Of a DNA stretch of 64,000 bases, positions 1,039 through 55,496 are shown in pieces (position 1 is the first letter of the stretch; every line of letters starts with the position of its first letter). Where the stretch lies: contig NC_014720.1 in the NCBI RefSeq assembly GCF_000166775.1, positions 2,450,001 through 2,514,000 on the forward strand. The letters run 5' to 3'. A program made the translations under genes and the position numbers. The notes under the pieces were generated by a model. That model had not been told where the DNA came from, made no database searches, and saw only the letters and a program-made list of their open reading frames with translations. This DNA comes from Caldicellulosiruptor kronotskyensis 2002 (GTDB lineage Bacteria > Bacillota > Thermoanaerobacteria > Caldicellulosiruptorales > Caldicellulosiruptoraceae).

Positions 1039-2826
1039 CTATTTTAAAAGCCTCTGTTTTAGCTTTTCATTCTCTCCAATGAGCTCTCTCGGGAGCCTGT
1101 CTCCAAACTGGCTTAAAAACTCTCTTGAATCCTCAGACTCTTTTAACCACAATTCTTTGTCTATCTCAAGAAGTTTTTCTACCGTCTGTTTGTCTATATC
1201 AAGACCATCTAAGTAAAGATCATCAACATATGGCACATAACCAATTGGAGTCTCTTTTGCCGAAACTTTTCCTTCGCACCTTTCAATTATCCATTTCAGA
1301 ACCCTCAAATTTTCACCAAACCCTGGCCAGATGAACTTGCCATTTTCGTCTTGTCTAAACCAGTTTACATGGAAAATCTTTGGCGGGTTTGGAATCTTCT
1401 TGCCCATCTCAAGCCAGTGCGCAAAATAGTCTGCCATGTTATAGCCACAGAACGGAAGCATTGCCATCGGGTCGCGACGAACAACGCCAACCTTGCCCAT
1501 TGCAGCAGCAGTTGTTTCAGATGCCATTGTAGCACCAACATATACACCATGCTGCCAGTCAAATGCTTCATACACAAGTGGAGCAACCTTTGCACGTCTG
1601 CCGCCAAATATTATTGCCGAAATAGGCACGCCCTTTGGATTTTCCCACTCCTTTGAAATTGATGGGCACTGGCTGGCTGGTGCTGTGAATCTTGCGTTCG
1701 GATGTGCACCCTTTTCGCCACTGTCTTTTGTCCATGGTCTTCCAAGCCAGTCAATACCTCGCTCTGGTGGCTCTCCGTCCATGCCTTCCCACCAAACTGT
1801 TCCATCTTCTTTTAAAAGAACATTTGTATATATAGTATTTCTCTTTATGGTCTCCATGGCATTTGGATTTGTCTTATAACTTGTGCCAGGTGCAACTCCA
1901 AAAAACCCTGCTTCAGGATTGATAGCCCACAATCTTCCATCTTCGCCAATTCTCATCCATGCAATGTCGTCACCAACTGTCCACACTTTATACCCAAGCT
2001 TTTTAAGAGGCTCTGGAGGAATAAGCATAGCTAAGTTTGTCTTACCACATGCGCTTGGGAACGCACCTGCAATATATGTTACCTTGCCACTCGGGTCCTC
2101 AATTCCGACAATGAGCATGTGTTCCGCAAGCCAGCCTTCTTTTCTTCCCAGATAGCTTGCAATTCTGAGCGCAAAACACTTCTTTGATAGAATGACATTT
2201 CCACCATACCCTGAGTTTACGCTCATGATAGTGTTATCCTGTGGGAAGTGGCAGATGTATCTTTTCTCTGGGTCAAGTGTTGCTTTTGAGTGAAGCCCTT
2301 TTACAAAGTCAGGAGAATTTCCAAGATGTTTTAGCGCAACGTTGCCAATCCTTGCCATGATTCTGAGATTTAAAACAACATATATGCTGTCTGTAAGCTC
2401 AATGCCCACTTTTGAATATGGTGAGCCAACAGGTCCCATCAAATATGGCACAACATACATTGTTCTTCCTTTCATGGACCCGTCAAAAAGTGAGTAGAGC
2501 ATCTTATATGCTTCGTTTGGATCCATCCAGTTATTAGTTGGACCTGCCTCTTCTTTTGTTGGTGTGCAGATAAAGGTTCTGTCTTCAACCCTTGCAACAT
2601 CGCTCGGATGAGTCCTGTGAAGGTAACATCCAGGAAGCTTTTCTTGGTTGAGCTCCATAAGTTCTCCTGACTCAAGAGCTTCTTTTATAAGCCTTTGTTT
2701 TTCTTCCTCTGAACCATCTATCCAGACAATCTTGTCTGGCTTTGTGATTTTTGCCATCTCATCAATCCATTCATACACTGAGGGATGTAAGTTCACCTTT
2801 ACCACCTTTTCTCCACCACCTTGCAA
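1039..2826 (-). CDS. pckG: phosphoenolpyruvate carboxykinase (GTP)
   Basis: This enzyme interconverts oxaloacetate plus GTP with PEP plus CO2 at the gluconeogenic/anaplerotic node, in the cytoplasm. Its roughly 590 residues match the GTP-dependent class, not the ATP-dependent one of about 530. The P-loop GAFPSACGKTN is at residues 254-264 and contains the reactive Cys typical of GTP enzymes. The metal and nucleotide motif VGDDIAW and the segment NPEAGFFGVAPGT follow, and FGGRRAKVAPLVYEAF lies near the C-terminus. The first possible codon is TTG at 2826. GTG at 2805 (VVKVNLHPS) has the GGTGGAG-like stretch upstream and may be the true start, so the first seven residues are uncertain. A sigma-A promoter lies just upstream, and the gene is probably transcribed alone up to the hairpin at 973-1022. 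Confidence 0.97.
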   Translation of the reverse strand: MQGGGEKVVKVNLHPSVYEWIDEMAKITKPDKIVWIDGSEEEKQRLIKEALESGELMELNQEKLPGCYLHRTHPSDVARVEDRTFICTPTKEEAGPTNNWMDPNEAYKMLYSLFDGSMKGRTMYVVPYLMGPVGSPYSKVGIELTDSIYVVLNLRIMARIGNVALKHLGNSPDFVKGLHSKATLDPEKRYICHFPQDNTIMSVNSGYGGNVILSKKCFALRIASYLGRKEGWLAEHMLIVGIEDPSGKVTYIAGAFPSACGKTNLAMLIPPEPLKKLGYKVWTVGDDIAWMRIGEDGRLWAINPEAGFFGVAPGTSYKTNPNAMETIKRNTIYTNVLLKEDGTVWWEGMDGEPPERGIDWLGRPWTKDSGEKGAHPNARFTAPASQCPSISKEWENPKGVPISAIIFGGRRAKVAPLVYEAFDWQHGVYVGATMASETTAAAMGKVGVVRRDPMAMLPFCGYNMADYFAHWLEMGKKIPNPPKIFHVNWFRQDENGKFIWPGFGENLRVLKWIIERCEGKVSAKETPIGYVPYVDDLYLDGLDIDKQTVEKLLEIDKELWLKESEDSREFLSQFGDRLPRELIGENEKLKQRLLK

Positions 2827-2858
2827 GTTTTGTTTATGATAATTGCAATTTGTATTAT

Positions 2859-2888
2859 ATTATACCTCATTAATGTCGAAATTGTCAA
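2859..2888 (-). promoter_or_regulatory. sigma-A promoter of pckG
   Basis: Minus-strand TTGACA (2883-2888) and TATAAT (2859-2864) are separated by 18 bp. Both hexamers are perfect. They sit 33 bp upstream of the first possible pckG start. Confidence 0.8.
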
Positions 2889-2969
2889 AAATAAAATAGC
2901 ATTTTTAAGAATAAATGAAACTTAACTACGCACTAAGTTGCATTTATTACCAGGTATTAAGAGCACCTT

Positions 2970-3818
2970 TTAACTTTTAAAAAATTCCTCTTTAAAGCAT
3001 TGGTAAAGTCTTATATAATCATCCAATGATAAATCCTCTGCTCTTAAATTTTCATCAAGTCCAGCCATGAGGATAATCTTTTTTAGCTCATCTTTTGCAA
3101 TATCAAGCTGATTTGAAAGAGCATTTAAAATTGTTTTTCGGCGGGTTGAAAAACATGCATGGACTATTTTAAAAAACTTCTTTTCATCAACATTTGGCTC
3201 TTCAACTTTGAACCTTGCTCTCAAGACAGCAGAGTCAACCTCTGGTTTGGGGTAAAAAACATTTTTGCTAACATAAAAGTAATCCTCTATTTCACAATAA
3301 AAGTTCATTGCAACTGTGAGATTTCCATACTCTTTTGTTCCTGGTTTTGCCAAAAGCCTTTGCGCAACCTCTTTTTGAACCATGATTGTAAACTTCTCTA
3401 TACACTCTCTTTCTTCAAAAAGCTTGAAGAGTATCTGTGATGTGACATAATATGGAAGATTGCCAATAACATATACCTTATTACCATTTGTTAAATTTTT
3501 AACATTAAGTTCAAGAAAGTCGCTATTTACTATTTGGACGTTTGAAAGGCTCTGGCAAACATCTTTTAAGACATTCAGTATCTTTTTGTCAATTTCAACT
3601 GCAAATACTTTCTGCGCAGTTTTTGCCAAATACACTGTAAGTGTTCCAGGGCCTGCACCTATCTCAATAACTTCCTTTCCTTCTGCCTGGGAAAATAAAA
3701 TGATTTTTCTTACCACATTTTCATCAACCAAAAAATTTTGGCCAAGCTTTTTATTTGGAGAAAGTCCATACTTTTCAAGAAGATTTAAAAGATCAGTTTT
3801 TGTGATGGCTGGATTCAC
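2970..3818 (-). CDS. rsmA: 16S rRNA (adenine(1518)-N(6)/adenine(1519)-N(6))-dimethyltransferase
   Basis: RsmA (KsgA) dimethylates two adjacent adenines in the 3'-terminal helix of 16S rRNA, using S-adenosylmethionine during late 30S assembly. The 282 residues match the family length. The N-terminal family signature KKLGQNFLVDENVV is at residues 23-36, the SAM-binding motif EIGAGPGTL at 52-60, and the catalytic motif GNLPYY at 119-124. The assigned start is GTG at 3818, but its AAGGAG lies directly against the codon, so the exact start is not secure. No other good start is visible nearby. The gene follows yajC across a terminator, so it probably has its own promoter or relies on readthrough. 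Confidence 0.96.
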   Translation of the reverse strand: MNPAITKTDLLNLLEKYGLSPNKKLGQNFLVDENVVRKIILFSQAEGKEVIEIGAGPGTLTVYLAKTAQKVFAVEIDKKILNVLKDVCQSLSNVQIVNSDFLELNVKNLTNGNKVYVIGNLPYYVTSQILFKLFEERECIEKFTIMVQKEVAQRLLAKPGTKEYGNLTVAMNFYCEIEDYFYVSKNVFYPKPEVDSAVLRARFKVEEPNVDEKKFFKIVHACFSTRRKTILNALSNQLDIAKDELKKIILMAGLDENLRAEDLSLDDYIRLYQCFKEEFFKS

Positions 3819-3847
3819 TCCTTTTTTAAAGTTGTTAATGACATTTA

Positions 3848-3890
3848 AAAATAAATGGCTCTGAGGACCTTAAGCCCTCAGAACCATACC
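3848..3890 (-). terminator. intrinsic terminator after yajC
   Basis: On the minus strand ATGGTTCTGAGG (3887-3876) pairs with CCTCAGAGCCAT (3866-3855) over 12 bp with a 9-nt loop. A TTATTTTTAA tract follows. It lies between yajC and rsmA. Confidence 0.8.
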
Positions 3891-3893
3891 TTT

Positions 3894-4259
3894 TTAATCT
3901 TTTGGTTCAGCCTTTTTCAAAACCTCTTTGACCGCCCACTTGTAAATTTTGAGCTTTACCCTGTCTGCTCCAACTTCAATTGTCAAAATATCATCCTTGA
4001 TATTCACAATCTTGCCGATAATTCCGGCGTTTGTAACTATCTCATCTCCAACAATTAAAGAATTAATCATCTCTCTGAACTGTTTCTCTCTTCTTCTCTG
4101 TGGAACAATTATGAGAAGGTAAAGAACTACAAACATCAATATAAGAGGTATGAACTGCGCAAGCAGAGCAATTGCTGTTGCACCTGGCGGTGCCTGCTGC
4201 TGAGAACTTTGATTGCCTGCTGCATACGCAAAATCAAATAATAGATTCATCAAACTCAT
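3894..4259 (-). CDS. yajC: preprotein translocase subunit YajC
   Basis: YajC is a small inner-membrane accessory of the Sec translocase that associates with SecDF. The protein has 121 residues. A Gln/Pro-rich N-terminus is followed by one membrane segment at about 27-51, then the basic stretch PQRRREKQFREM and the conserved core VGDEIVTNAGIIGKIVNI at about 71-88. The ATG start at 4259 follows a G-rich ribosome binding site. In many bacteria yajC sits next to tgt and secDF; here tgt is about 9 kb away and secDF is not in the window. The gene is closed by a terminator. Confidence 0.95.
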   Translation of the reverse strand: MSLMNLLFDFAYAAGNQSSQQQAPPGATAIALLAQFIPLILMFVVLYLLIIVPQRRREKQFREMINSLIVGDEIVTNAGIIGKIVNIKDDILTIEVGADRVKLKIYKWAVKEVLKKAEPKD

Positions 4260-4317
4260 AAATTTTTTATCCCCCTGCCACCATTTGATTTTTTAAATTA
4301 AAATTATGCATAATAAT

Positions 4318-4345
4318 ATTATAACAGTTATCAAAAAATAGGCAA
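4318..4345 (-). promoter_or_regulatory. probable sigma-A promoter of yajC
   Basis: Minus-strand TTGCCT (4340-4345) and a perfect TATAAT (4318-4323) are separated by 16 bp. The -10 is strong and the -35 is moderate. It lies in the divergent 120-bp gap between yajC and the radical SAM gene. Confidence 0.5.
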
Positions 4346-4380
4346 GAACTTTTAAAAGACTAAAAAGGAGGCTATTAAAA

Positions 4381-5376
4381 TTGGAAAAATTTGTCGAAAA
4401 CCTTAAAATTGAAAGACTTTTTTCAGGTGGTGTCATCACAAACTACTACTGTTCTTCTGCCTGTAAACACTGCCTATACAATAGCTCGCCATCATGGAAA
4501 AAAGAATACATGACAGAGGAGATGGCAGATAAATTATTTAAAACATTAAGAAAGTTTGGAGTTTACTCTGTTCATATAGGCGGTGGTGAGCCTTTTTTGA
4601 ATTTTGAAGGTCTTAAAAAGGTCATCAATAGAGCAAATGAAAATAGGATTTACATTGAGTACATAGAGACAAACGCTTCGTGGGTGGAAAATGAAGATGA
4701 GGTAAAAAGAAGATTAAAAGAATTGAAAAATCTTGGAATTGAAACAATACTTGTCTCAATCAGCCCTTTTCACAATGAATATATTCCATTCAAAAAAGTG
4801 TTAAAGCTAATAAACCTTTTAAAAGAAGTTGGGATTGAAATCTTTCCTTGGGTTGAAGGGTTTTTGCCTGAGATAAAAAGATTTGATATTGAAAAAACAC
4901 ATCCCTTTTCAGAATACATAGATACCTTTGGAGAAAACTATGTAAAATCGCTACCTTTGCGCTATTACCTTACATTAAATGGAAGGGCAATAAAAACTTT
5001 TGAAGAGTTCTTTCCTAAAAAGAGTATTGAGGAAATACTCGAAAACTCATCTCCCTGCCATGAATTAAATAGTAAGACTCATTTTCATATGGACCTTTTT
5101 GGAAATTTTATCCCAAACCCATGTGTGGGATTCAAAATTTCCATTGACGATTTGGGAAAAGATCTTGATTGCAAAAAGTATTTCTTTGTAAATATGCTCT
5201 ACACAAAAGGTATTCATGAGCTTTTCAGGTTTGCTCAAGAAAACTTCGGATATGAAGCGAAAAAAGGTTACCTTCTTAAGTGCAGCCTGTGTTTTGATAT
5301 AAGAAGGTTTTTGGTATTAGAAAAAAACGTAGAGGCATTTGACTTTGGACCAAGAGAGTTTTATGAACAGTATTAA
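4381..5376 (+). CDS. radical SAM protein with extra C-terminal cysteines
   Basis: The protein has 331 residues and starts at TTG after a strong AAGGAGG site; no better start is in frame. The N-terminal motif NYYCSSACKHC supplies Cys24, Cys28 and Cys31 (CxxxCxxC) for the radical SAM [4Fe-4S] cluster. HIGGGEPFLN at 65-74 is the SAM-binding GGE motif. Further cysteines at 226, 248, 264, 301 and 304 (KCSLCF) suggest an auxiliary cluster as in SPASM or Twitch proteins. The substrate is not evident: there is no precursor peptide, dehydrogenase or obvious partner beside it. The gene is the only plus-strand core gene here. Its stop overlaps by 4 bp the stop of the convergent glycosyltransferase gene. 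The class is clear from the cysteine motif; the function is unknown. Confidence 0.85.
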   Translation: MEKFVENLKIERLFSGGVITNYYCSSACKHCLYNSSPSWKKEYMTEEMADKLFKTLRKFGVYSVHIGGGEPFLNFEGLKKVINRANENRIYIEYIETNASWVENEDEVKRRLKELKNLGIETILVSISPFHNEYIPFKKVLKLINLLKEVGIEIFPWVEGFLPEIKRFDIEKTHPFSEYIDTFGENYVKSLPLRYYLTLNGRAIKTFEEFFPKKSIEEILENSSPCHELNSKTHFHMDLFGNFIPNPCVGFKISIDDLGKDLDCKKYFFVNMLYTKGIHELFRFAQENFGYEAKKGYLLKCSLCFDIRRFLVLEKNVEAFDFGPREFYEQY

Positions 5377-6800
5377 AATCTTTTCGATTTCTCTCTCAGC
5401 CACTTTATCCCTTGGCCGCTTAACAAAAAGAGTGTGAAAATTGCAGGGTAGTGATAACGAGGTTGAACTTCTAAAAATATGTGTAATACAACATAGCCAA
5501 GGAATATAAGATTTAAAAAAAGAAAAATTTCTTTATTGGCATTTTTTTTAGATGAGAGAATCCCTAAAATGATGTAAATCAAAACTGCATAGTAGTATAG
5601 CTGAGAGAACATATAGAAAATGGTTGGATGAACTTTTACAAGATTAACAAAATATGTGGTTTTGTAAACTTTAAAAGTACTCCAAAAATACCCAAAGCTA
5701 TCATCGCCCCAGATAATAGCATGTTTGCGAGGGAGAATAGCAATAAAAATTTTTGTCTCTTTTCTGAGTCTCTCTAAACCTATTTTCATAGCCTCACCGT
5801 GCATCTTTTGAAAATCATAAGCATATTTTTTAACAAACAAAGAATGTTTAGGATTGTTCATACCATATGTTGTATAGTCTGTACCAATCATGAGATTAAG
5901 CCCCATTGATGTTTTCCACACAGGAATGCCTGTGAGACAAAAAATTAGATATCCTACTGTATAGAATGTAATAACGTATGAAATTATAGTTAAGATAGCA
6001 CTTTTCAAGATTTTAAAATCTTTACAAAGAATTTTTAGTGCAAACAAGAAAATCATCGCAATTATGATCACAACAGCAACAGGTCTTATATGATTTGAAA
6101 TTGCCACAAGGACTCCTGCAAATATGCCAAAAATGGCTTTTTTCTCTTTTATTGCCCTTAACAAAAAATACAGCCCCAGCACAAAAAACACAATAAATGG
6201 GTGTTCAGACGCCAAAACTGAATTATACATTATCTGCGATGGCCAAAAGGCATACAAAATTGCTGAATATGTGGCTGCTTCTTTGCCAAAAAGATAGTCA
6301 ACAGTAAAATATATGATAAGTCCTAAAATTACTGAAAGAAACACATTGAAAAGTTTTCCTACAATTATGCTGCTTCCAAAAATCTTGAAAACAAGTGCCA
6401 AAATTAATGAATATCCAAATCTGAACCTAAAGAGTGTAAAAGTCATGTCATACCCTTTTAAAAAGCCTTGAGAAGCTTTTTGGGCATAGTAATAAAAACA
6501 CAAATAGTCCGAAACCGGCTTTGTTGGCATCAAAAAAATCCATATAAGTCTTGGAGCTGCTATAACAAGAATTAACAAGAGTATAGCGAGTTTTTTGTTT
6601 GCCAGTTTTCGAAATATAAAAAGCCAAATATTAAAGATTAAAAAAGCTGACAAAAGAAGAATAACCATCACAACAAAACTTATTTTCTTATGTGTAAGAG
6701 CAACTATCCGAAACTGAAATGACAAAACAATGGCTAATCCTAAAAGCACTGCAACAATGCATCTAAAAAATGTGTCAAGTCTTCCTACTGTATTTTGCAT
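5373..6800 (-). CDS. GT39/PMT-type integral membrane glycosyltransferase (intact copy)
   Basis: This is a 475-residue, strongly hydrophobic protein with about ten or more predicted membrane segments. It resembles the ArnT/dolichyl-phosphate-mannose mannosyltransferase class, which moves a sugar from a polyprenyl-phosphate carrier to a surface acceptor. The early acidic loop (PTKPVSDYLCFYYYAQK, about residue 92 on) and the stretch FWPSQIMYNSVLASEHPFI fit that class. Near the C-terminus is HIFLEVQPRYHYPAI, shared with the two broken copies at 8196-9704 and 11390-12953. It follows gtrA by 17 bp and ends the minus-strand set GT39(broken)-GT2-gtrA-GT39. The sugar and acceptor are unknown. This is the only intact member of the three. 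Confidence 0.8.
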   Translation of the reverse strand: MQNTVGRLDTFFRCIVAVLLGLAIVLSFQFRIVALTHKKISFVVMVILLLSAFLIFNIWLFIFRKLANKKLAILLLILVIAAPRLIWIFLMPTKPVSDYLCFYYYAQKASQGFLKGYDMTFTLFRFRFGYSLILALVFKIFGSSIIVGKLFNVFLSVILGLIIYFTVDYLFGKEAATYSAILYAFWPSQIMYNSVLASEHPFIVFFVLGLYFLLRAIKEKKAIFGIFAGVLVAISNHIRPVAVVIIIAMIFLFALKILCKDFKILKSAILTIISYVITFYTVGYLIFCLTGIPVWKTSMGLNLMIGTDYTTYGMNNPKHSLFVKKYAYDFQKMHGEAMKIGLERLRKETKIFIAILPRKHAIIWGDDSFGYFWSTFKVYKTTYFVNLVKVHPTIFYMFSQLYYYAVLIYIILGILSSKKNANKEIFLFLNLIFLGYVVLHIFLEVQPRYHYPAIFTLFLLSGQGIKWLREKSKRF

Positions 6801-6817
6801 TCACATACCCTACCCTT

Positions 6818-7249
6818 TCAAAATTTGTTAAATACCCAATATTTATACGATAAATAGTTTATCATCTGAGCGCAAAGAGTTGCAAGAATTTTGGCGATTA
6901 AAATTGAATTTGATAGGTAGGTTTTTGAAAGTTTTAAGACAACAATTGAAGATCCTAATGAAACAAGGTTTGTAATCACGAATTTTAACAACTTTGTAAT
7001 TATTACTTTGCCGGTGGTTTTGTCTTCGAATGTCCACTTTTTGTTCATTATAAAGCTATTTATCATGCCGCTTGTGTATCCAAAAACCTGACTGAGTGAG
7101 TAACTGATACGAAAGACAGAATAAAAAAGAAAAAATACTGCAAAGTCAACTGCTGTATTTATAACCCCAACTATCGAAAATTTCACAAGCTGGACTATTT
7201 GCTTTTTGTACAAATTTATCTTTTCTACAAAATAGCTAAAATTATTCAT
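6818..7249 (-). CDS. GtrA family membrane protein
   Basis: The protein has 143 residues with four hydrophobic segments, the layout of the GtrA family. These proteins are proposed to flip or assist transfer of polyprenyl-phosphate-linked sugars in cell-surface glycosylation. The first segment begins KFSIVGVINTAVDFAVFF, typical of the family, and the C-terminus YLSYKYWVF is also characteristic. The ATG start overlaps the last codons of the upstream GT2 gene by 8 bp, so the two are probably translationally coupled. GtrA next to a GtrB-like GT2 and a PMT-type transferase is the standard three-part arrangement. Confidence 0.88.
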   Translation of the reverse strand: MNNFSYFVEKINLYKKQIVQLVKFSIVGVINTAVDFAVFFLFYSVFRISYSLSQVFGYTSGMINSFIMNKKWTFEDKTTGKVIITKLLKFVITNLVSLGSSIVVLKLSKTYLSNSILIAKILATLCAQMINYLSYKYWVFNKF

Positions 7250-8189
7250 CCCCTGCTATCTCCTCAATGAAGTATAAAGGCCTTCTTTTGACCTCTTTAT
7301 AAATTTTGCCAATATACTCACCAATGAGCCCTAAGGCAACAAGCTGAAGCCCGCCTATAAACCAAATTGAAATTGTAAGCGAAGTCCAGCCTGTGACAGC
7401 TTGTCCTCTTAATTTCTGTACTATCGCATATATAAGAATTACAAAACTTAGCAAAAACATTAAAAAACCAGCTGTTGTGATATACTTTATGGGCTTTACC
7501 GAAAAAGATGTAATTCCTTCAAAAGCAAAAGAGAGCATTTTCTTGAGCGGATACTTTGTCTTTCCTGCTACTCTTTCTAATCTTTCATAGTAGACAACTG
7601 TTGATTTTAAGCCAATTAATGGAATCATACCTCTTAAGAACAAGTTTCTCTCTTCAAATTGCAAAAGATACTGGACTGCTCTTTTACTCATGAGCCTGTA
7701 ATCAGCATGATTAAAAACAATCTCAACTCCAAATGCCTTCATTAGTTTATAAAAGCCCTCTGCAGTAAACCTTTTGAAAAACGTATCGGTTTTTCTGCTG
7801 CTCCTCACTCCATACACAATCTCATAGCCTTCCTTGTACTTTTGTATAAACTCATCAATGACATTGATATCGTCCTGCAAATCTGCGTCTAATGTAATTA
7901 TACAATCAGCAAATTTTACAGCATAGCTCATTCCTGCCATAAGGGCGTTTTGATGCCCACAGTTTCGCGAAAGTTTGACCCCCAAAAATCTCTTATCCTC
8001 TGCAGCAGCTTTGATCAGATCCCACGTTCTATCACGGCTTCCATCGTCAACAAAGACAACTTTGCTTTTATCAGAAATTAGCTTTTTTTCAATGAGGCTT
8101 TGCAGTTTTTCACCCATCTTTTGAATTGTGAAAGGCAGCATTTCTTCTTCGTTGTAGCATGGGATTACAAAGTATATCTTGGGAAGCAT
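7242..8189 (-). CDS. GtrB/DPM1-like family 2 glycosyltransferase
   Basis: The protein has 315 residues. An N-terminal GT-A domain (about 1-230) begins IYFVIPCYNEEEMLP and carries the metal-binding DxD motif in ITLDADLQDD. Two C-terminal membrane segments follow at about 235-300. This is the layout of enzymes that make undecaprenyl-phosphate-sugar at the inner face of the membrane, which supplies the GtrA and GT39 proteins encoded next to it. The start is ATG at 8189; its AAAGGAG site lies inside the end of the broken GT39 gene upstream. The downstream gtrA overlaps it. The sugar transferred cannot be told from sequence. Confidence 0.9.
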   Translation of the reverse strand: MLPKIYFVIPCYNEEEMLPFTIQKMGEKLQSLIEKKLISDKSKVVFVDDGSRDRTWDLIKAAAEDKRFLGVKLSRNCGHQNALMAGMSYAVKFADCIITLDADLQDDINVIDEFIQKYKEGYEIVYGVRSSRKTDTFFKRFTAEGFYKLMKAFGVEIVFNHADYRLMSKRAVQYLLQFEERNLFLRGMIPLIGLKSTVVYYERLERVAGKTKYPLKKMLSFAFEGITSFSVKPIKYITTAGFLMFLLSFVILIYAIVQKLRGQAVTGWTSLTISIWFIGGLQLVALGLIGEYIGKIYKEVKRRPLYFIEEIAGDE

Positions 8190-8195
8190 TAACCT

Positions 8196-9704
8196 TCAAC
8201 TCCTTTGAATATATTTTAAAAAATTTTTTAAACATTCTAATTTGAAATCTTTCATTCCATATGCTGCAATGGATAGTAAAAAAATAATTGCAGGATAATG
8301 ATACCTTGACTGAACTTCTAACAAAAAGTAACTTAAAAAATGTATTAAAAATACCAAAACAGAAATTATTATACTATCTTTTTTCAAGCTAAATAATAAG
8401 CCAAATATAATAAAGAAAAGTATCACTAAATAAAACACTTGCACATATATAATTAAAAATTCTTTTATTAAAGTATTCCGAGACAATTTTAAATTTGCTC
8501 CCTGAGTAAAACTCCAATTAATTGAGTAAGTCTCATCACCCCAGAGAATTGCAATCTTTTCTTCTATAAGTTTTAGAAATCCCTTAGGATGTAATTTAAT
8601 TCTTTCAATAGCAATTTTAAAGCTTTCCTTATGAACTTTTTTGAAATCGTAATTGTATTTACCTAAAATTAAAGCATCTTTATTATTGTACACGCCATGT
8701 GATTTCAAATTAGTACCAACCATAAAATTATAACCTATTGACCATCTCAATGGTACTCCTGTAAGAAACTTTATAACTGCATTCATAATTAGTATAGTAA
8801 TTATAAAGGATACTAAAATTATAAGATATGTTTTTATCAATAAAACCATTTTTCTTCTTTTTTTAATTATAACAAATCCTGATATAAATAAGACTAATAT
8901 TAACATTTGAGCAACAGGTCTTATTATTTGAGCCAATGCAATAAAAATTCCACAAAGTAAAGAAAAAATAATATTTTTAGAAGGTGTGTTATCAATAGCT
9001 TTCTATAAAAAATAAAACTGCTGTTAGGAAAAATGTTATAAATAAATTCTCTGATGCAATAACAGATGAATACATTATTTGTGCCGGCCATAAAGCATAC
9101 AAAATTGATACCACATTAGCTGTATGTTTATCATACATTTTAAGTGCAAGAATATAAATTAATAATAAATTTATCATAGAAAATAAAATATTTATAAGAG
9201 AACCTTTTGTAAATGATGCACCTATTAAAAAATACACCAATCCTAATAACAGCGAAAATCCAACTCTATGAGGAAAAATCAAACATGTTTTATCAAGAGG
9301 GCTAAAAATTCCATTTGAAATATTTGTGGCATATTGATGGTAAAACAAAAAGTCAGAACAAGGCATTGGTTTTACAATAAAGTAATATAAAATCCTTAAA
9401 ATTAAACCTACACAAAACAACATAAATACAAAAGTATCTTTATGTTTATTAATTATGTAAGCAATATATTTTCTTGATTTTACAATAAAGAGAATAAAAA
9501 GCCCCATTAATATAGTAAAAACATAAGTTGGGTAATTGGTTATTATTATTGTCCGCTGAAATAAGGCTATAAAAAATAAATATAAAAATATAATTATGCT
9601 ACAAATATTAAGCAAAATTGATAATATTTTTTGTCAAAAATCATTATATCAACTGTTTTTTTGTTTAGCCCATTGAACATTTGAATTATGAAATTAAACT
9701 TCAT
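8196..9704 (-). pseudogene. GT39/PMT-type glycosyltransferase, broken by two frameshifts
   Basis: Read together, the pieces form one homologue of the intact 475-residue GT39 protein at 5373-6800. Translation from ATG at 9704 begins MKFNFIIQMFNGLNKK. The frame is lost at an A6 tract (9627-9632); one extra A restores it. A long middle piece then runs to a stop at 8992 (RVGFSLLLGLVYFL, YALWPAQIMYSSVIASENLF). A second 1-nt indel near 8995-9005 is needed to enter the last piece (ALAQIIRPVAQML to LLEVQSRYHYPAI). Each piece matches the corresponding part of the intact gene, so the breaks are indels and not separate genes. Sequencing error at homopolymers cannot be excluded. The gene heads the GT2-gtrA-GT39 set. 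Confidence 0.75.
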
Positions 9705-10178
9705 CTTACCACATCCTACATTTTTAATCTTTTTAGATTTTGATTAAAACTAAACTATATTTGCTAAATCTCTATTTAACCATTAATGCTTAGTAAAGCA
9801 AAAGCATTGACAAAAATAGAGTTAGTCTATTATAAATCTGATTTCATCATTCTATTTTTGTCCTAAAATTATAGTAATTTTAAAACATCCTTGTGTCAAG
9901 AAATAAATTAAAGAATATTGTCTTTTTTACATTTATCGTTTCTATAAATTAATATTTTGAGACGTACTTACGAAAATTTGTTTCAAATAGCCAATACTTT
10001 GATTAAATTTTTGTTAAATCAAAATATTGCTTTTTTTATTTTTTTTACAATTAAATTAGAAAATTTTAGTTGGTTGAGAAAGGAGGAAATAACTATATGA
10101 TATAATTCAAAAAACATTGTTTTTTACTTTATCTTAATACAATAATATACATTTTTGTTAATTTTGGAGGTATTTCCT
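9705..10178. other. AT-rich intergenic region with plus-strand promoter
   Basis: This 474-bp non-coding gap separates the minus-strand glycosylation genes from the plus-strand secreted protein. It holds one good plus-strand promoter (9807-9836) and a 12-bp inverted repeat around its -10. There is also an AAAGGAGG site at 10080-10086 followed only by Met-Ile-stop at 10097-10105. I see no gene. Confidence 0.6.
9807..9862 (+). promoter_or_regulatory. sigma-A promoter bracketed by a 12-bp inverted repeat
   Basis: TTGACA (9807-9812) and TATAAA (9831-9836) are 18 bp apart. GACAAAAATAGA (9809-9820) and TCTATTTTTGTC (9851-9862) are perfect inverted copies, so the repeat overlaps the -35 and flanks the -10. 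This could be an operator. Transcription from here would give the secreted protein gene a leader of about 335 nt. Confidence 0.5.
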
Positions 10179-11240
10179 ATGAAAAAATTCTTTGTTTTCT
10201 TACTAAGTTTACTTACAATAATTACATTTACTGTAAAGGTGTATGCTGTTATACCTTCTGGTTACACTGCTGTTTCATTTTCAAACGGAGGTAATAATTT
10301 TATTTATTCTGATAACCCGGAAAGTTTTGGTGTTACCCCTAATGATCTTTTCTATCTATGGGGTGCTTCTTTAAACACTACGCCCAAAGATGTGGAGATG
10401 TACCATATTTTATACAATGGTTGGAACTCAAACAACAAACTTATGGTTGGAATTGCTATTCGTAATTCCAATAACTCACCTGTTACAATTACATTCAAAG
10501 GTAGTGGAAATGCATGGGACATCCAAAGCAATCAATCAGCTAATGCACTTGTAAAAACACCAGGTATATTGAGAGACTATTTTAATGCTTCATATACTTC
10601 TGTTACAATACCTGCATATTCAACCCAAGTTGTATATGCAATAAACACAAATTTTGTCACTGGTAACTATAAATTTGTTTTTATAAGAGCTCAATTTCAA
10701 TCTTCTTTAAGCTCAAATGTTTGGATGAGATTATTCGTAGCAGGAGAAAATAAAATAAATTCAACAACATTTTTAAATGATTTATTCAACATTTCATCTC
10801 CAAATGCACCTGGTACAACAAACACTTTTACAGGAGAACTTTCGCACACCCAAAATATTACAACTCTTGATGCTAATGTGAAAACCACTTATAGATTTTG
10901 TGAATGGCCACGCCCATTATCAAATATTAACGAATATACAGGTGTTGTAACATATAAGTCCGGTGGATTGGATGTAAACGCAGGAATTTTTGGTGTGGTA
11001 TATAAAATTAATATAAATAATGCAAATGGAAAAAGAATAAAAATTACACCAGATTGGAGTAATAAAGATCGACAATATGCCACTATCCTTTACAGATTAA
11101 ATGGAAGTTCTTGGACAGTTGGATCTACTATTAGTTACGGACAATGCTGGTATATCTCTTTAGGAACAAACAATTCCGCAACCTTCGATTTTGTCCTACC
11201 TGGTGGTAATTATGGAAACTATGATATTTCATTTGATTAA
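10179..11240 (+). CDS. secreted protein of unknown function
   Basis: The ATG at 10179 follows TTTTGGAGGT and gives a 353-residue protein. The N-terminus, MKKFFVFLLSLLTIITF, is a classic signal peptide with a likely cleavage after VYA at about residue 23. The mature part is rich in Asn, Thr, Ser and aromatic residues, has almost no Lys/Glu clusters, and looks like an extracellular beta-rich protein. There is no LPXTG, S-layer-homology or cellulose-binding signature and no C-terminal anchor. I do not recognise the family. It is flanked on both sides by GT39-type genes, so it may be a glycosylated surface or secreted protein, but that is only an inference from position. Confidence 0.8.
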   Translation: MKKFFVFLLSLLTIITFTVKVYAVIPSGYTAVSFSNGGNNFIYSDNPESFGVTPNDLFYLWGASLNTTPKDVEMYHILYNGWNSNNKLMVGIAIRNSNNSPVTITFKGSGNAWDIQSNQSANALVKTPGILRDYFNASYTSVTIPAYSTQVVYAINTNFVTGNYKFVFIRAQFQSSLSSNVWMRLFVAGENKINSTTFLNDLFNISSPNAPGTTNTFTGELSHTQNITTLDANVKTTYRFCEWPRPLSNINEYTGVVTYKSGGLDVNAGIFGVVYKININNANGKRIKITPDWSNKDRQYATILYRLNGSSWTVGSTISYGQCWYISLGTNNSATFDFVLPGGNYGNYDISFD

Positions 11241-11389
11241 AAAAGTACATTCTTTTTGCAGGAGGCTATATTTTGTGGCCTCCTGCAAGTCTAAATCGTT
11301 GAAATCCTAACAAAATTGTGCTAAAATATTTAAAGCGTGGAACTCAAACAAATTTATTTAACATACGGTGAAGGGAGACGTTATAAATA

Positions 11390-12953
11390 ATGAAAAATAA
11401 TAAGCAAACCATGGTTAATTTTAATTTTAGAAGGTTTTTTTTTTATGTTTTTTGTATTCAATAATCACAATTTTTGTGGTTTTTGTTTTTGAAAAAGTTT
11501 TTATTGTTGGTTATCTAGATTATGTTTTACCGACTAGAATCCCAAAAATTTTGTCGCGTGCAATTTTATTTTTATTTGTTATTACTATCAACATATTTAT
11601 CATATTTCTAAACCTAAAGAAAATTATTATCGAAAAGTTCAATGAAAAACACATTATTTTTTTCCTTTTTGTTATTTCGATAACTCTCCCTTTAGTATTA
11701 GCTTTTTCAATTAAAGTCGAACCTAAATCTGATTTCTTAACATATTATCTCATAGCAAGACACTTAGTTTATGGTAAAATATTTATTCCAAATTACATAG
11801 CAACATTTCCTCACACAATCATGTTTCCTATTTTTTTATCATTTATTTTTTATATTTTTGGTCCATCAATTTTAGTAGCTCAATTAACAGGTATACTATT
11901 GTCTGCAATGTCAGTTATTTTGGTTTTTCTTATTGGAAAAGAAGCTGGGAAAAAACGATTGGGATTTATAGCTGCTCTAATGTGGTCTTTAATGCCATCA
12001 AGAATATTTTATTCTTTATTAATATGCACAGAAAACCTATTTAATATTGTAGCACTATTTACGATACTTTTGTTTTTTAGAAATCTAAGAACTTCCAAAA
12101 GTGTAAAAACTAAATATTTCAATCTGGCTCTTATTGGTATTTTGCTGGCCTGGTTAAGTAGTATCAGACCAAATGGAATTATCATTTTAATTGCACTGAC
12201 ATTATTTTATATCGTATTTTCCAAAGAAACTAACAATAATTTCCTTAAAAAGGATACTCATAATATACATTTTTTGAAATTTATTGCTGTTTCTATAATA
12301 TTGACAAATTATCTTCTTGTATCTTTTTCTCTAAACATTATGACTGAATCAATAATTAACCAAAAGATTGCTTCAACCCGAATAGGTTGGAATTTGTATG
12401 TTGGTATGAACATATCTTCTCATGGGCAGTGGAATAAAAACGATTCAAAACTATTCGGAAAACTTATAAAAGAAATTGGCCCTGATCAAGCTCAAAAAGC
12501 ATTTTTTTAACCTTGGTCTTAAACGACTTCAAACTCTTATAAAAGAGAAAAAAATAATAAGTTTTATTTTTGATAAAATAATAACAATGTGGCATGCAGA
12601 CCATGAAGCATATGATTATGTTTCGGGTGCGCTATTACAAAATACAGCTGAAAAGCTAATTTTTACTAAGAACAATAAAATAATTAAACTTTTCTTTGAT
12701 ATATATTATTACATCATTCTATTTACTGCTCTTTTAGGATTAATTTGGGAATTAAAACTGTAGTTTTTCAAATTCAATAATTATTATAGGTTCTTTTATA
12801 ATTTTAGGTACAATTTTATTACATATCCCTTTCGAAGCAGCATTAAGATATAAAAACCATGCTTTGTTATGGTTTTGTTTTATTTCAGCAAATGGAATAA
12901 TTACAATTTCGGAAAAAATCGCAAAATCACATAAGTCTCATGTAAATAATTAG
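11390..12953 (+). pseudogene. third GT39/PMT-type glycosyltransferase, broken by three frameshifts
   Basis: Four reading-frame pieces line up in order with the intact GT39 protein. ATG at 11390 opens MKNNKQTMVNFNF. The frame breaks at a T10 tract (11435-11444), where one more T joins it to the long piece ending at 12510 (KVEPKSDFLTYYLIARH; SLMPSRIFYSLLICTENLF). A T7 tract (12502-12508) with one T too many separates it from the next piece, which ends at 12763. A further 1-nt shift near 12757 leads into HIPFEAALRYKNHALL, which matches HIFLEVQPRYHYPAI of the intact copy, and a stop at 12951-12953. Three independent indels argue for decay, though two are in homopolymers. It is the only GT39 copy on the plus strand. 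Confidence 0.75.
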
Positions 12954-12959
12954 CAAAAC

Positions 12960-14072
<1,113 letters not shown>

Positions 14073-14087
14073 TTATAATGAAAAAAC

Positions 14088-14867
14088 CTATGGGTTTAAA
14101 ATGAGCTTTCCACTCCCGATTTTTGTAGACTTATATATTAGGTTTGAAACATACTCTTTGGTGCTTATCAAGGTATCATACATATTATATCCCTTTGCAA
14201 GGAAAGTGGCAAATGCAGTCGAAAATGCACAGCCAGTCCCGTGAATGTTATCTGTAAAGCCTTGTTTTTTTGCATGTACTCTAAAAATTCCACTTTGTGT
14301 TATCAAAACATCCTCTGCAAGCTTGCCATCAAGATGACCGCCTTTTAGGATGCATGATTTTATTCCCATTTTCTTCATTCTTTCTTGAACGCAGCTTAGA
14401 ACATCTACATCAAAATTTTTAATTTCCACATCAAAAATGACTTCTGCCTCATTTTTGTTGGGTGTGATGACATCACAGGCTTTGAAAAACTCATATTTTA
14501 AAAATTCTATAAACTCACTTTTACAAAACTCAAAACCGCTTGTGGATTTCAAAACCGGGTCACACACTACGTTTTTAAGATTGTACCTTTTTAAGTTTCT
14601 CAGTACAACAACTGCTATCTCAGAACTTCCTAAAAGTCCAATCTTGACACTGTCTGGCTTTATATCTTCAACCACTTTTTGAAGCTGATACTCAAAAAAA
14701 TGAGGGTCTATGGGTTTTAAGTCATAGACCCTTTGAGTATCCTGGACTGTCAAAGATGTTACTACAGATGTTGCATAACCATTCAACGCCCTCACAACTT
14801 TTACGTCAAGCAAAACGCCTGCACCACCTGATGGGTCAAACCCGGCAATTATGAGCACTTTTTTCAT
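14088..14867 (-). CDS. thiD: hydroxymethylpyrimidine/phosphomethylpyrimidine kinase
   Basis: ThiD phosphorylates HMP and HMP-P to HMP-PP, the pyrimidine half of thiamine. It has 259 residues of the ribokinase fold. The N-terminus VLIIAGFDPSGGAGVLLDVK is diagnostic, and the anion-hole/catalytic motif DNIHGTGCAFSTAFA lies near the C-terminus. ATG at 14867 follows AAGGAGATG. It is the last thiamine gene of the operon, directly after thiC, and feeds thiE. Confidence 0.96.
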   Translation of the reverse strand: MKKVLIIAGFDPSGGAGVLLDVKVVRALNGYATSVVTSLTVQDTQRVYDLKPIDPHFFEYQLQKVVEDIKPDSVKIGLLGSSEIAVVVLRNLKRYNLKNVVCDPVLKSTSGFEFCKSEFIEFLKYEFFKACDVITPNKNEAEVIFDVEIKNFDVDVLSCVQERMKKMGIKSCILKGGHLDGKLAEDVLITQSGIFRVHAKKQGFTDNIHGTGCAFSTAFATFLAKGYNMYDTLISTKEYVSNLIYKSTKIGSGKLILNP

Positions 14868-19978: not shown

Positions 19979-20932
19979 TTACTTTAATCTTTTTATTTCT
20001 TCAGGTGTAAGACCCGTATACTTTGAAATAAGCTCTATAGGCTGATTATCTTTTAGCATCTGTTTTGCAATTAATTTCATTGCGCGTTTCATACCTTGCT
20101 TCATACCTTGCTTCATACCTTGCTTCATGCCTTGCTTCATGCCTTGCTTCATTGCCTCTTTAGCAATTTTTTTCTTTTCTCTTTCAATTCCTTGCTTTAT
20201 CTTTTCAGCTGTGCTTGAAAACATCTCATCCACCTCCAATCCTGATTTTTTAAACATCTCTTCAGCTTCTTCTTCACTAACACCATAAGACCTTAAAATA
20301 ACCTCATACAACCAATCAGCTAATTCTTCTCTCTGTTCCCAGTTAAGATGTATTTTCCCTCTTAAATTCAATATCCTATTTAGTACCCTTTCAGAATTAT
20401 TAGATACTTGGTCAATGTACATTGCTATTGCTAATACGTTTGACGCACTAATTAACTTCTCCTCAGGTATACTTTTGATATCTAAGAATATTATCTTGAA
20501 ATTTTGTGCGTACTCTGGAAAATCTTCTGCAAATAGGATAATTTCGCTATACTGTTCATTAGGTTTCCAATGACTTATACCATTATACAGCACAATTGGC
20601 ACAACTACTGGTATTTCACCATTTACTTTGTTCTTGAGCTGAATGAGATGCATATATTCATATAATCTGTGTAAAATTTTCTTGTCCTCTCTACTTTGAA
20701 ATTCAATGGTCAAACAAAAGAAAGAATCTTTATATTTTATCTTATACACTATGTCTGAGCTTTTCTTTTGCCACTTTTTATTTATCGACTCAGTTGCAAT
20801 AATCTCTACATCACTTTTTTCTAATCTCTTAAATCTTTCTTCATTTAAAACATTCTGTAAAAACCAAATTAGATTCTCTTTATTAGAAAACAATTTTTTG
20901 TATCCTTCATCATACTTTTTATAAGTCTTCAT
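19979..20932 (-). CDS. Rpn family recombination-promoting nuclease/putative transposase
   Basis: The protein has 317 residues. The N-terminal domain begins YDEGYKKLFSNKENL and carries SSDIVYKIKY, then LTIEFQSREDK, the conserved PD-(D/E)XK-like strand set of the Rpn/DUF4351 group. The middle has PIVLYNG and ADWLYEVILRSYGVS. Near the C-terminus five copies of Met-Lys-Gln-Gly are encoded by a 12-bp DNA repeat and form a charged helical spacer before a short end domain (YTGLTPEEIKRLK). Members of this family are multi-copy in related genomes; a second, broken copy is 250 bp upstream. Role in recombination is known only for the family. Confidence 0.85.
   Translation of the reverse strand: MKTYKKYDEGYKKLFSNKENLIWFLQNVLNEERFKRLEKSDVEIIATESINKKWQKKSSDIVYKIKYKDSFFCLTIEFQSREDKKILHRLYEYMHLIQLKNKVNGEIPVVVPIVLYNGISHWKPNEQYSEIILFAEDFPEYAQNFKIIFLDIKSIPEEKLISASNVLAIAMYIDQVSNNSERVLNRILNLRGKIHLNWEQREELADWLYEVILRSYGVSEEEAEEMFKKSGLEVDEMFSSTAEKIKQGIEREKKKIAKEAMKQGMKQGMKQGMKQGMKQGMKRAMKLIAKQMLKDNQPIELISKYTGLTPEEIKRLK
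20088..20152 (-). repeat. 12-bp tandem repeat inside the Rpn gene
   Basis: Five head-to-tail units of the 12-mer seen on the plus strand as ATACCTTGCTTC, with A/G variation in the last two, encode GMKQ repeats. Repeats of this kind can gain or lose units by slippage without breaking the frame. Confidence 0.85.
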
Positions 20933-36427: not shown

Positions 36428-39292
36428 CTATTCAAGCTTTTTCCTTACCAATTTAATATTTTGCTCATCCTTGCAGTAAAATTCATATTCACATCCGCTA
36501 CAATCTCTTTTTGTATACTCTTCAATTAACATAAGAACATCTTTTTTATTTTTGATATTTCTTATCCTGTCGATTGTCTCTTTTACTTCTTCAATATGTT
36601 CAGCTTTTAGAATATATTCAAAACTTTTGCCTTCTCTTAGCCAAAAGATTGAAGATATGATATCTTTTTGTGGTTCTCTTTGTTTTATTGCCTGTGTATA
36701 AATGCAAAGTTGCGGAATATAGCTTTCAAATTTTTTGAGGTCAAAGTTAAGATTTGTTTTAAAGTCAATGAGATAAATCTTATTTTCAAGATAATACACC
36801 TTATCAATTATTCCATATATAATTTGATTCCCAAGCTTATAATAAAAGCGATGTTCGCTTTCTTCTCTTATTATTTTGTCTTTTATTTCTCTGATAAAAC
36901 TGCTTTTGAAATAGTTAAAAACAAGTTTTCTTACAAGTTCTTTATCTTCAAAATCATTCTCAATCACAGCTAAAGAAATGTTACTTTCAAGATTATCGAT
37001 ATCATCAATATCTTTTATTTTTGTTAGTTCCAAAACTCTGTGAACGGTTGTGCCAAGTACTTTTGCATTTTGTTGCAACTCTTCTTTTGAGCTTTGTTCA
37101 TCAAAAACTGGAAGTCCCATTATATACTTTAATGAAAACATAACAGGACATTTTTTAAAATCCATTATATGTGAAGGCGATAAAATTTTAAATCTATTTT
37201 CAAATTCATCTGGCAAAATTATGGATGGCAAAGTATAAGATATGCTGTTATTTCCTGAACTTAAGTCAAAACCTTGCGATGTTTTTTCTTCCTCTTTCAT
37301 TATTACAACTTCTTTTTCAATTCCAATCTCCTCTGCTTTTTCAAGAATGTAATTAAAACCCACCTCTTCACCAAATGACTTTGATCCTCCTCTTTTTTTT
37401 ACAGTTTCTTTTATTGTTGAATTTATCATAAAAATCCCAGCCATTGGTCTTGTTATGGCAACATAAAAAAGTCTTTTAAGCTCCTCTTTCTCTTGCTGTT
37501 TTGATATATTCTTTATTCTTGTGTATTCTTTTTCTATCCAAAAAGGAGCAATAATATATTCTTTCGTAGAGGTATCATAAGAACCTCTCAGCTTTGGACT
37601 TCTGCCTGGAAAATACCCTGTGCTTTCGCAAAGTCCAACCAAAAACACTATTGGAAAACTGAGCCCTTTCGCTGAATGGATACTTATTAGCACAACACTG
37701 TCATCAAGTGCAGAATAACCTGACATCTTTTCACCCTGATTGTTAATAAAATTTAAAAGGTCTTCTAATGAAAAGCTATTGCTCTCTTCTGCTAAGTCGT
37801 AAAAAAGCCTGACGTTTTCATATGCTGCCTTCCCAAAATATTTATAGACTTTGTAGCTGTACTCAAACATATCTTCAAACTCATATAAAATCTCTGAAAT
37901 TTTCTTTACAAACAGATTATCACGCTGTTTTGCAATGAACTTTAAAACATCTTCTGGAACATAACTTTCAATTTTGCTCATCTCGCAAAAAAGAAGCGTG
38001 AACCTATCCACTTTAAATATGTCATTTGCAAGAAGTCTCAAGTATCCTGATTTTTTGTCCGGATATTGTAAAATCTCAAGAAAACCTAAAAGCGGTACTA
38101 TTTCTTTTTGTTCTGAAAGTCCTCTTCTAAAGTTTATATCAAGAGGAATTTCATACTCCTCAAACACCTTCTTATATACATGAGCAATGCTTTGAATCTT
38201 TCGCGATAGCACAGCAAAATCAGAATATTTAACCCTTCTTTCTGGTTTTCCACCTACACTAATCGTAACACCATCTGCAACCATCTCTTTTATTTTTTTA
38301 GCAACATATATAGCTTCATTTTGAATAATATTCTCTTTTGTTTCATTTACAATTTCAACTATTTTTAAAAACCCGTCAGCCTGATGTTTATAAGAAAGTG
38401 GCTTGTAACTGGGAAAAAGTATAGATGCAATTTTGTCAATCTTTTTGCCAAGCTCTGAGTTTGTTCTAAAATTTTCACAAAGTTCTAAAACCTGATTGCT
38501 ATTTTCTATAGCTTCATCAAAAACCTCTGGCTCGGCACCCTGAAAACGGTAAATGGACTGCTTTTTGTCTCCGATGTAATAAATGTTTTCAGCTATGTTC
38601 TCAAAAATTGATTTTTGTAAAAAGTTTGAGTCTTGAAACTCGTCAACAATTAAGTATTTAAATCTGGTTTTTATATCTCTATTTACTTCTGGAATGTTTA
38701 AAAGTTCAAAGGTTCTTTGCAAGACCAAATCGTATGTAAGTTCTTTTAAAAACATGCTATTTAAACTTTCAGATAGATGATCAAATATATAAAAAGTTTC
38801 GCTTTCAAGGTGATAAGCTTTGTTGACATATTTTGACGAATTGTTAAATTCCTGCGCGATATTTTCAATATAGTGAAGATATTCTTCTATAAAAAATTTC
38901 TCCTGAGGCAATCTCCCTAATGTTGCTGGAAATACTGAAAGATAATTGTCTATGAGTTTTAGCATGAGTCTATTCTGGTCAGGAACAATTTTAAAGTTTG
39001 CATCAACCCTTGCCCATGCCCAATAAAATCGTAAAAGATACATACAAAATGAGTGTATAGTTTTAATATGGGAATTTTGAATCTTTGAAATTGTAAGCAA
39101 ATCAAGCCCTTTTTGCTTTGCTTTTGAGATGATTCTACTCTTGAGCTCTTTAGCTGCCTTTTCCGTATACGTTATGCATACAATTTCGTTTGGGGTAGCT
39201 TTCTCAGAATTTATAATGTCTATATAAAGATTTGCAATACTTTCTGTTTTTCCACAACCAGCTGAAGCGCTATAAACAATTATATTGCCCAT
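36428..39292 (-). CDS. AddA-like UvrD helicase with C-terminal PD-(D/E)XK nuclease
   Basis: The protein has 954 residues, shorter than typical AddA (about 1,200). The helicase opens VYSASAGCGKTES (Walker A), LIVDEFQDSN (DEXX) and YYIGDKKQSIYRFQGAE follow, with SIHSAKGLSFPIVFLVG (motif V) and FYVAITRPM (motif VI). The C-terminal nuclease has YGIIDKV and YLIDFKT, an intact D...DxK site, and cysteines in FKKCPVMF and CSGCEYEFYC suggest a [4Fe-4S]-capped fold. It follows an AddB-like gene (28 bp), the usual order for double-strand break resection. Annotation as generic UvrD-like exonuclease is safer than naming it AddA. Confidence 0.88.
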   Translation of the reverse strand: MGNIIVYSASAGCGKTESIANLYIDIINSEKATPNEIVCITYTEKAAKELKSRIISKAKQKGLDLLTISKIQNSHIKTIHSFCMYLLRFYWAWARVDANFKIVPDQNRLMLKLIDNYLSVFPATLGRLPQEKFFIEEYLHYIENIAQEFNNSSKYVNKAYHLESETFYIFDHLSESLNSMFLKELTYDLVLQRTFELLNIPEVNRDIKTRFKYLIVDEFQDSNFLQKSIFENIAENIYYIGDKKQSIYRFQGAEPEVFDEAIENSNQVLELCENFRTNSELGKKIDKIASILFPSYKPLSYKHQADGFLKIVEIVNETKENIIQNEAIYVAKKIKEMVADGVTISVGGKPERRVKYSDFAVLSRKIQSIAHVYKKVFEEYEIPLDINFRRGLSEQKEIVPLLGFLEILQYPDKKSGYLRLLANDIFKVDRFTLLFCEMSKIESYVPEDVLKFIAKQRDNLFVKKISEILYEFEDMFEYSYKVYKYFGKAAYENVRLFYDLAEESNSFSLEDLLNFINNQGEKMSGYSALDDSVVLISIHSAKGLSFPIVFLVGLCESTGYFPGRSPKLRGSYDTSTKEYIIAPFWIEKEYTRIKNISKQQEKEELKRLFYVAITRPMAGIFMINSTIKETVKKRGGSKSFGEEVGFNYILEKAEEIGIEKEVVIMKEEEKTSQGFDLSSGNNSISYTLPSIILPDEFENRFKILSPSHIMDFKKCPVMFSLKYIMGLPVFDEQSSKEELQQNAKVLGTTVHRVLELTKIKDIDDIDNLESNISLAVIENDFEDKELVRKLVFNYFKSSFIREIKDKIIREESEHRFYYKLGNQIIYGIIDKVYYLENKIYLIDFKTNLNFDLKKFESYIPQLCIYTQAIKQREPQKDIISSIFWLREGKSFEYILKAEHIEEVKETIDRIRNIKNKKDVLMLIEEYTKRDCSGCEYEFYCKDEQNIKLVRKKLE

Positions 39293-39320
39293 TTTTTCAA
39301 CCTTCCCTTAATATTTTTGT

Positions 39321-55444: not shown

Positions 55445-55496
55445 ATTTTATCTTATACATTTTCACTCTGTCAATCTCGTTTTTTTTTTTTTTTTT
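55445..55496 (-). promoter_or_regulatory. sigma-A promoter of bacteriocin exporter with A17 tract upstream
   Basis: Minus-strand TTGACA (55469-55474) and TAAAAT (55445-55450) are 18 bp apart. Five bases upstream of the -35 is a run of 17 adenines (55480-55496 as T on the plus strand), placed where an UP element contacts the alpha subunit C-terminal domain. Confidence 0.75.

Follow-up and report, generated by a model that had tools for sequence, protein, structure and literature searches.

The 64,000-nucleotide stretch of Caldicellulosiruptor kronotskyensis 2002 analysed here (the window, C1:2450001-2514000 of a complete genome of 2,843,785 bases) carries a glycosylation cassette with three genes for GT-C transferases. 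Two of these, GTC2 and GTC3, are split, and GTC1 is one open frame. Comparison with related species suggests that GTC2 and GTC3 are very probably recent pseudogenes, and that the breaks reflect decay in a variable island and not an on/off switch. The comparison panel comprises 12 Caldicellulosiruptor species genomes, the source of the window (G000) and 11 others (G001-G011). G007 is taken as C. bescii (label: C. bescii-like) on the strength of its CelA-like protein, whose GH48 part aligns with PDB 4L0G, which we take to be C. bescii CelA, along 638 residues and shows no visible difference there.

The interval between tgt and rsmA is a syntenic but variable island in all 12 species. Its glycosylation cassette, in the species compared, comprises gtrA, gtrB (PgfS/GtrB-like) and at most three GT-C transferases. 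The cassette of the window is bounded by rsmA-yajC-radical SAM (2970-5376) on one side and by tgt (12960-14033) on the other. GTC1, gtrA, gtrB and GTC2 are read from the minus strand; sec361 and GTC3, which come next, are read from the plus strand. The cassette is colinear with that of G007 (locus L042), at 96.3% identity over 11.2 kb. Open reading frames (ORFs) were mapped in the islands of all 11 other species and related to the window genes by blastp. The parts are as follows, with dN/dS denoting the ratio of nonsynonymous to synonymous substitution rates.

5373..6800 (-): GTC1, intact GT-C transferase of 475 aa in a single open frame; Pfam PMT_2, 52.8 bits
6818..7249 (-): gtrA, intact GtrA/DPMS transmembrane protein; PF04138, 96.6 bits; dN/dS 0.06 vs G007
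7242..8189 (-): gtrB, intact, family 2 polyprenyl-phosphate sugar synthase-like; PF00535, 85.7 bits; dN/dS 0.09
8196..~9706 (-): GTC2, broken GT-C transferase; main pieces 8992-9615 and 8196-8936
8997 (-): frame break in GTC2, absent from the G007 copy
9627..9632 (-): 5'-end homopolymer in GTC2 (A6 as read in the coding direction); breaks the frame between the body and a short ORF upstream of it
10155..11240 (+): sec361, intact, secreted-looking, 361 aa, between the two broken genes
~11391..12950 (+): GTC3, broken GT-C transferase; Pfam PMT_2, 45.5 bits on 11452-12510
11435..11444 (+): T10 tract in GTC3; offset from the upstream ATG common to the T7 copies of G007 and G003
12502..12508 (+): T7 tract in GTC3; frame break specific to G000, not in G007 or G003
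12749..12757 (~12751) (+): frame break in GTC3 specific to G000, not in G007 or G003

GTC3 is thus left as pieces 11452-12510(+) and 12476-12763(+) plus an out-of-frame tail. An earlier note on this DNA had described two of three transferase genes as broken among intact neighbours, and rightly so: gtrA, gtrB and the gene for the 361-aa secreted protein are all open.

Breaks and turnover across species

Alignment of G000 with G007 over 2901-14100 contains 15 gaps, nine of them inside the three GT-C genes. Differences that change the frame fall at 8997, 9592/9601 (5 nt), 9626, 12502 and 12751; the T10 tract differs from its G007 counterpart by 3 nt and is frame-neutral. Four of the nine GT-C indels (8836, 8997, 9592 and 12751) lie outside runs of at least six. 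Within GTC2, the gaps at 8836/8860 cancel as a pair in frame, 8997 is a break, and the 5' end differs at 9592-9601 and 9626. The single gap in GTC1 is in an A tract at 5515, and here the broken copy is that of G007, which has a frameshift plus a TAA.

In both G000 and G007 the short upstream ORF of GTC2 and the body are in different frames, by different routes; read from an alternative start, the G007 copy stays open for 470 codons. Because a related GT-C of another genus (G031/L101) has a GTC2-like N-terminal segment in frame, A6 is accepted, on this comparison, as a break at the 5' end of GTC2, one that a downstream TTG start could bypass. In GTC3 the upstream ATG is out of frame with the body at the T10 of G000 and at the T7 of both G007 and G003; the copies of G004, G008 and G011 have no tract, and their N-terminus is in frame. 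The five indels traced in the earlier note can therefore be revised as follows. Those at 8997 (placed near 9000), 12502-12508 and 12751 (placed near 12757) stand, as does A6, while T10 is no independent break, the offset being present in G007 and G003.

The breaks are not common to all relatives. Three of the five (8997, 12502-12508 and ~12751) are specific to G000, and relatives carry other lesions. GTC1 is open in seven of the 12 genomes (G000, G001, G004, G005, G008, G010 and G011), broken in G007, in two fragments in G003, and not found in G002, G006 or G009. GTC2 occurs in two genomes, broken in G000 and open in G007. In G004 and G008 the whole of GTC3 is open, its N-terminus being in frame. 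The G011 copy is interrupted by a single TAG, that of G000 is broken, and those of G007 and G003 are open but for the offset at the 5' tract. Ten of the 12 genomes have open copies of both gtrA and gtrB, the cassette being absent from G002 and G009; the island of G006 retains only this pair, with no GT-C ORF at the locus. Judged from these sequences, the cassette shows turnover by different lesions in different lineages.

Indel rates and selection

Rates were measured between G000 and G007 against 27 control genes with 26,363 aligned coding bases. The genes at 36428-41948 were excluded (81-82% identity, many compensating gaps), as was the gene at 19979-20932, which did not align to a copy within the G007 regions retrieved. 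The control genes carry 1122 substitutions and 10 indels, of which three are multiples of three, four form two compensating pairs and three lie near called gene ends. The three GT-C genes (4499 bases) carry 72 substitutions and nine indels, and intergenic DNA (3713 bases) 163 substitutions and 18 indels. The indel:substitution ratio of the GT-C genes differs sharply from that of control coding sequence (9:72 vs 10:1122, p=9e-7) and is close to that of intergenic DNA (9:72 vs 18:163, p=0.83). In another control set of 31,882 bases, 22 indels were not multiples of three; each of these was one of a pair, belonged to a cluster whose net length is a multiple of three, or lay close to a gene end.

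Runs of at least six are denser in the GT-C genes (35, or 7.8/kb) than in the control genes (72, or 2.7/kb). T10 was considered as an unusual tract and rejected: the window holds nine T10 words, matching shuffles (mean 11.06), and the G000 genome has 20 A/T runs of at least 10, that of GTC3 included, most of the others where no long frame is open.

Between G000 and G007, dN/dS is 0.63 for GTC1, 0.30 for GTC2 and 0.48 for GTC3; it is 0.31 for sec361 and 0.03-0.21 for nine other genes. Nonsynonymous and synonymous changes number 42:24 in the GT-C genes against 6:19 in gtrA/gtrB (p=0.0009), although the counts are small. The synonymous rate dS is 0.025-0.028 in the GT-C genes compared with 0.06-0.33 in those nine genes. 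On this measure, the G000 and G007 copies of the GT-C part of the cassette therefore seem to have diverged more recently, perhaps through recombination.

Decay weighed against switching and error

In GTC2 and GTC3, frames that are open in homologues are disrupted, and selection is relaxed relative to the neighbouring genes. The two pseudogenes would thus be hosted by a fast-turnover glycosylation island between tgt and rsmA. Family membership suggests that gtrB makes a lipid-linked sugar, that gtrA moves it across the membrane, and that the GT-C proteins attach it outside. The GT-C genes may have lost purifying selection in several lineages, so that their sequence, rich in A/T and dense in homopolymers, would gain indels at roughly the non-coding rate. 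The location of many breaks in homopolymers would then reflect slippage as the usual indel mechanism there, and not a switch. Constraint on gtrA/gtrB may persist because the pair serves another GT-C, perhaps the intact GT39 linked to celA.

Several results weigh against decay. Nonsynonymous changes in GTC2 are below the neutral expectation (p=0.022). For GTC1 and GTC3 the departure from neutrality is not significant (p=0.24 and 0.086), which does not formally show neutrality. Such values are as expected if decay is recent, and equally if weak selection persists. The GTC3 bodies of G007 and G003, moreover, remain open for 498 codons with a dN/dS of 0.23 despite the T-tract offset that they share.

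This last point is the basis of an alternative for the sister species, in which transcriptional slippage or a downstream TTG start bypasses the 5' offsets of GTC3 (and of GTC2), so that the copies of C. bescii and G003 work. The two GTC3 bodies differ at 138 sites, and their constraint (p=5e-14) resembles that of the intact pair G004-G008 (dN/dS 0.25). However, the mismatch between G007 and G003 is 3/297 in 11351-11650 and then rises to 11-26 per 150 bases (7-17%). Such a sharp change makes a recombination breakpoint inside GTC3 near 11650 likely, and the tract-bearing 5' end has therefore probably moved between the G007 and G003 lineages recently. Constraint on the bodies may predate the offset. 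Furthermore, by eye, the sole purine-rich AGAAGG before the TTG precedes it by 15-18 bases, a spacing too wide for a good ribosome site. Bypass in the sisters is thus unlikely. It would be compatible with decay in G000, where only the G000 copy would be dead, and that estimate applies to the sister copies alone.

Because the tract-bearing 5' end probably moved recently, the GTC3 offset is treated as a single lesion that recombination has spread; slippage or an alternative start is kept as the minority reading. The shared offset was considered as proof of programmed slippage and is weakened as such by the likely breakpoint. It is conceivable, but very improbable, that expression of GTC3 in C. 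bescii and G003 depends on slippage at the T tract, where RNA polymerase would slip at growth temperature, and that the 5' end spread by recombination as a regulatory unit.

Phase variation would have homopolymers near the 5' ends of GTC2 and GTC3 toggle the genes by slipped-strand mispairing. Surface glycosylation is a classic phase-variable trait, and homopolymer contingency genes have their tracts near the 5' end of glycosylation genes. The cassette resembles such genes in that T10 and A6 lie shortly past the likely start codons and that tract length differs between relatives, T10 in G000 being T7 in G007 and G003. Runs of at least six have also changed length more often in the GT-C genes (5/35) than in control genes (1/72, p=0.014). 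In contrast to contingency genes, however, no ON state is seen: all three tract-bearing genomes (G000, G007 and G003) are out of frame at the GTC3 tract. The G000 copy has two further breaks (12502 and 12751) in a frame that is otherwise open in G007 and G003. A/T tracts of 6-7 are short for contingency loci, nearly half of the GT-C indels lie outside runs, and the indel rate equals that of intergenic DNA. Switching through T10 or A6 was rejected on these grounds and is highly improbable, and the leaning of the earlier note towards decay is borne out by the species comparison. Among the titles listed by literature searches on Caldicellulosiruptor phase variation, pseudogenes and frameshifts, none dealt with this locus.

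Sequencing or assembly error in the G000 homopolymers is scarcely credible: several sites are in homopolymers, and an isolated one-base frame difference in a cellulase-type gene (L100 13135) indicates that the rate of error or mutation is not zero, but the 26.4 kb of control coding sequence with its 72 runs shows no interior uncompensated frameshift, the breaks at 8997 and 12751 are outside runs of at least six, relaxed dN/dS is not an effect of indels, and sister genomes carry independent lesions of other types (nonsense, large deletion).

Decay thus remains the preferred account of GTC2 and GTC3. The locus may serve as a worked example of how decay can be separated from phase variation at homopolymers, by setting the indel:substitution ratio against that of non-coding DNA and by searching for an in-frame state.

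Transferase family, sugar donor and other features

The earlier note had named all three proteins GT39 transferases. They are of the PMT_2 type: GTC1, GTC3 and the G007 copy of GTC2 score above the Pfam cut-off, and the first GTC2 piece of G000 scores below it. The PMT_2 model is not specific to GT39. An AlphaFold model of GTC1 from 14 sequences has a mean pLDDT of 80.4 and a pTM of 0.84. In VIA-align, ArnT is its best match (Z 22.4, rmsd 3.5 over 313), followed by OST-A (Z 20.5) and Pmt4 (Z 17.3, rmsd 4.0 over 336); the best Foldseek E-value is 0.0016. The fold of the model is GT-C, nearest ArnT. A P-x-S-D motif (P95, S97 and D98 of GTC1) is invariant in 14 aligned GT-Cs; to judge from GT-C enzymes already characterised, it presumably belongs to the first outer loop. 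The GT39 label is possible but unproven for GTC1-3, and too specific.

The one GT39 found by a CAZy screen of C. bescii, Cbes_1864, lies elsewhere (PMC6151902). According to that paper, its deletion abolishes protein glycosylation, and the gene is needed for growth on crystalline cellulose. Like the island proteins it is a membrane transferase with Pfam PMT_2; unlike them it is encoded near celA, and the island genes were not counted in that screen. Among the 12 genomes searched, the celA-linked GT39-type gene is open in all eight carriers and absent from four, and the G000 copy is 99% identical to that of G007. The decaying transferases of the island are in this way set apart from a conserved celA-linked GT39.

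GtrA (PF04138) and PMT_2 co-occur in the same 10 of 12 genomes, and G002 and G009 have neither. In G006 the single PMT_2 match is the GT39-type gene. This distribution is compatible with a common lipid-linked donor that gtrA/gtrB would make. It does not prove such a link, because five genomes (G000, G003, G007, G008 and G011) contain another GtrA match outside the island, which is partial in G000 and in G007 and has stops in G011, and twelve related genomes are not independent trials. That G006 keeps gtrA/gtrB with no local transferase suggests that the pair supplies the sugar donor for CelA glycosylation.

In GtrA/GtrB/GT-C three-component modules, as here, genes for GtrA, a GtrB-like protein and a GT-C are adjacent on one strand. 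The cassette differs in having two or three GT-Cs, some broken, and its transfer of a lipid-linked sugar is a prediction. Against the NCBIfam PgfS model, gtrB scores 241 bits, below the model's cut-off of 500. The Pgf operon of Streptococcus mutans (pgfS-pgfM1-pgfE-pgfM2) likewise combines a PgfS-type synthase with two membrane proteins, PgfM1, described as of the PMT-2 subfamily, and the related PgfM2 (PMC5856776). Here, in contrast, gtrA is present, no epimerase ORF was seen in the cassette, and two of three GT-Cs are broken.

A different element is a better candidate for phase variation than the GT-C genes. An A17 tract on the minus strand (T17 on plus; 55480-55496), upstream of 53130-55334(-), lies a few bases upstream of a promoter-like TTGACA...TAAAAT sequence, before genes for a C39-peptidase ABC exporter and HlyD. 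With up to three mismatches allowed, the promoter-like element occurs at 36 sites in 10 of the 12 genomes, against none for a reversed control. In the 29 copies read, out of 30 retrieved from these sites, the longest A run is 7 to 29. The matching G007 copy has a run of 8, compared with 17 in G000. Judged by sequence, the element looks like a repeated promoter with a tunable, hypervariable A-tract, comparable to the T-tract of Helicobacter sabA (PMC4081817).

Some smaller observations concern individual genes. No Pfam or NCBIfam match was obtained for sec361; it is intact in G007, has a 317-nt deletion in G003 and is a remnant in G006; other loci of G007, G003 and G004 encode distant relatives (27-32%). 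A contig search with a GTC2 piece returned one distant Lachnospiraceae relative at 24%, which was not used. Near the GT39 gene, a multi-module cellulase-type gene (L100 10830-14952; G000:C1 ~1015329-1019451) is split by one base at L100 13135, within a repeated module, and its G007 counterpart is a single 1369-aa frame; the split may be genuine or may stem from an assembly slip between similar repeats.

Six islands (L036, L037, L039, L040, L043 and L045) hold an extra block of ORFs, many of ~290-620 aa on the minus strand, unrelated to the window genes by blastp. The radical SAM gene beside the G004 island is interrupted by a 580-aa ORF (L039 reverse complement 1997-5198), possibly a mobile element. 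In G006, rsmA (L041) sits in an open frame of 1965 aa, compared with 280-305 aa in other genomes, which points either to a fusion or to a missing stop.

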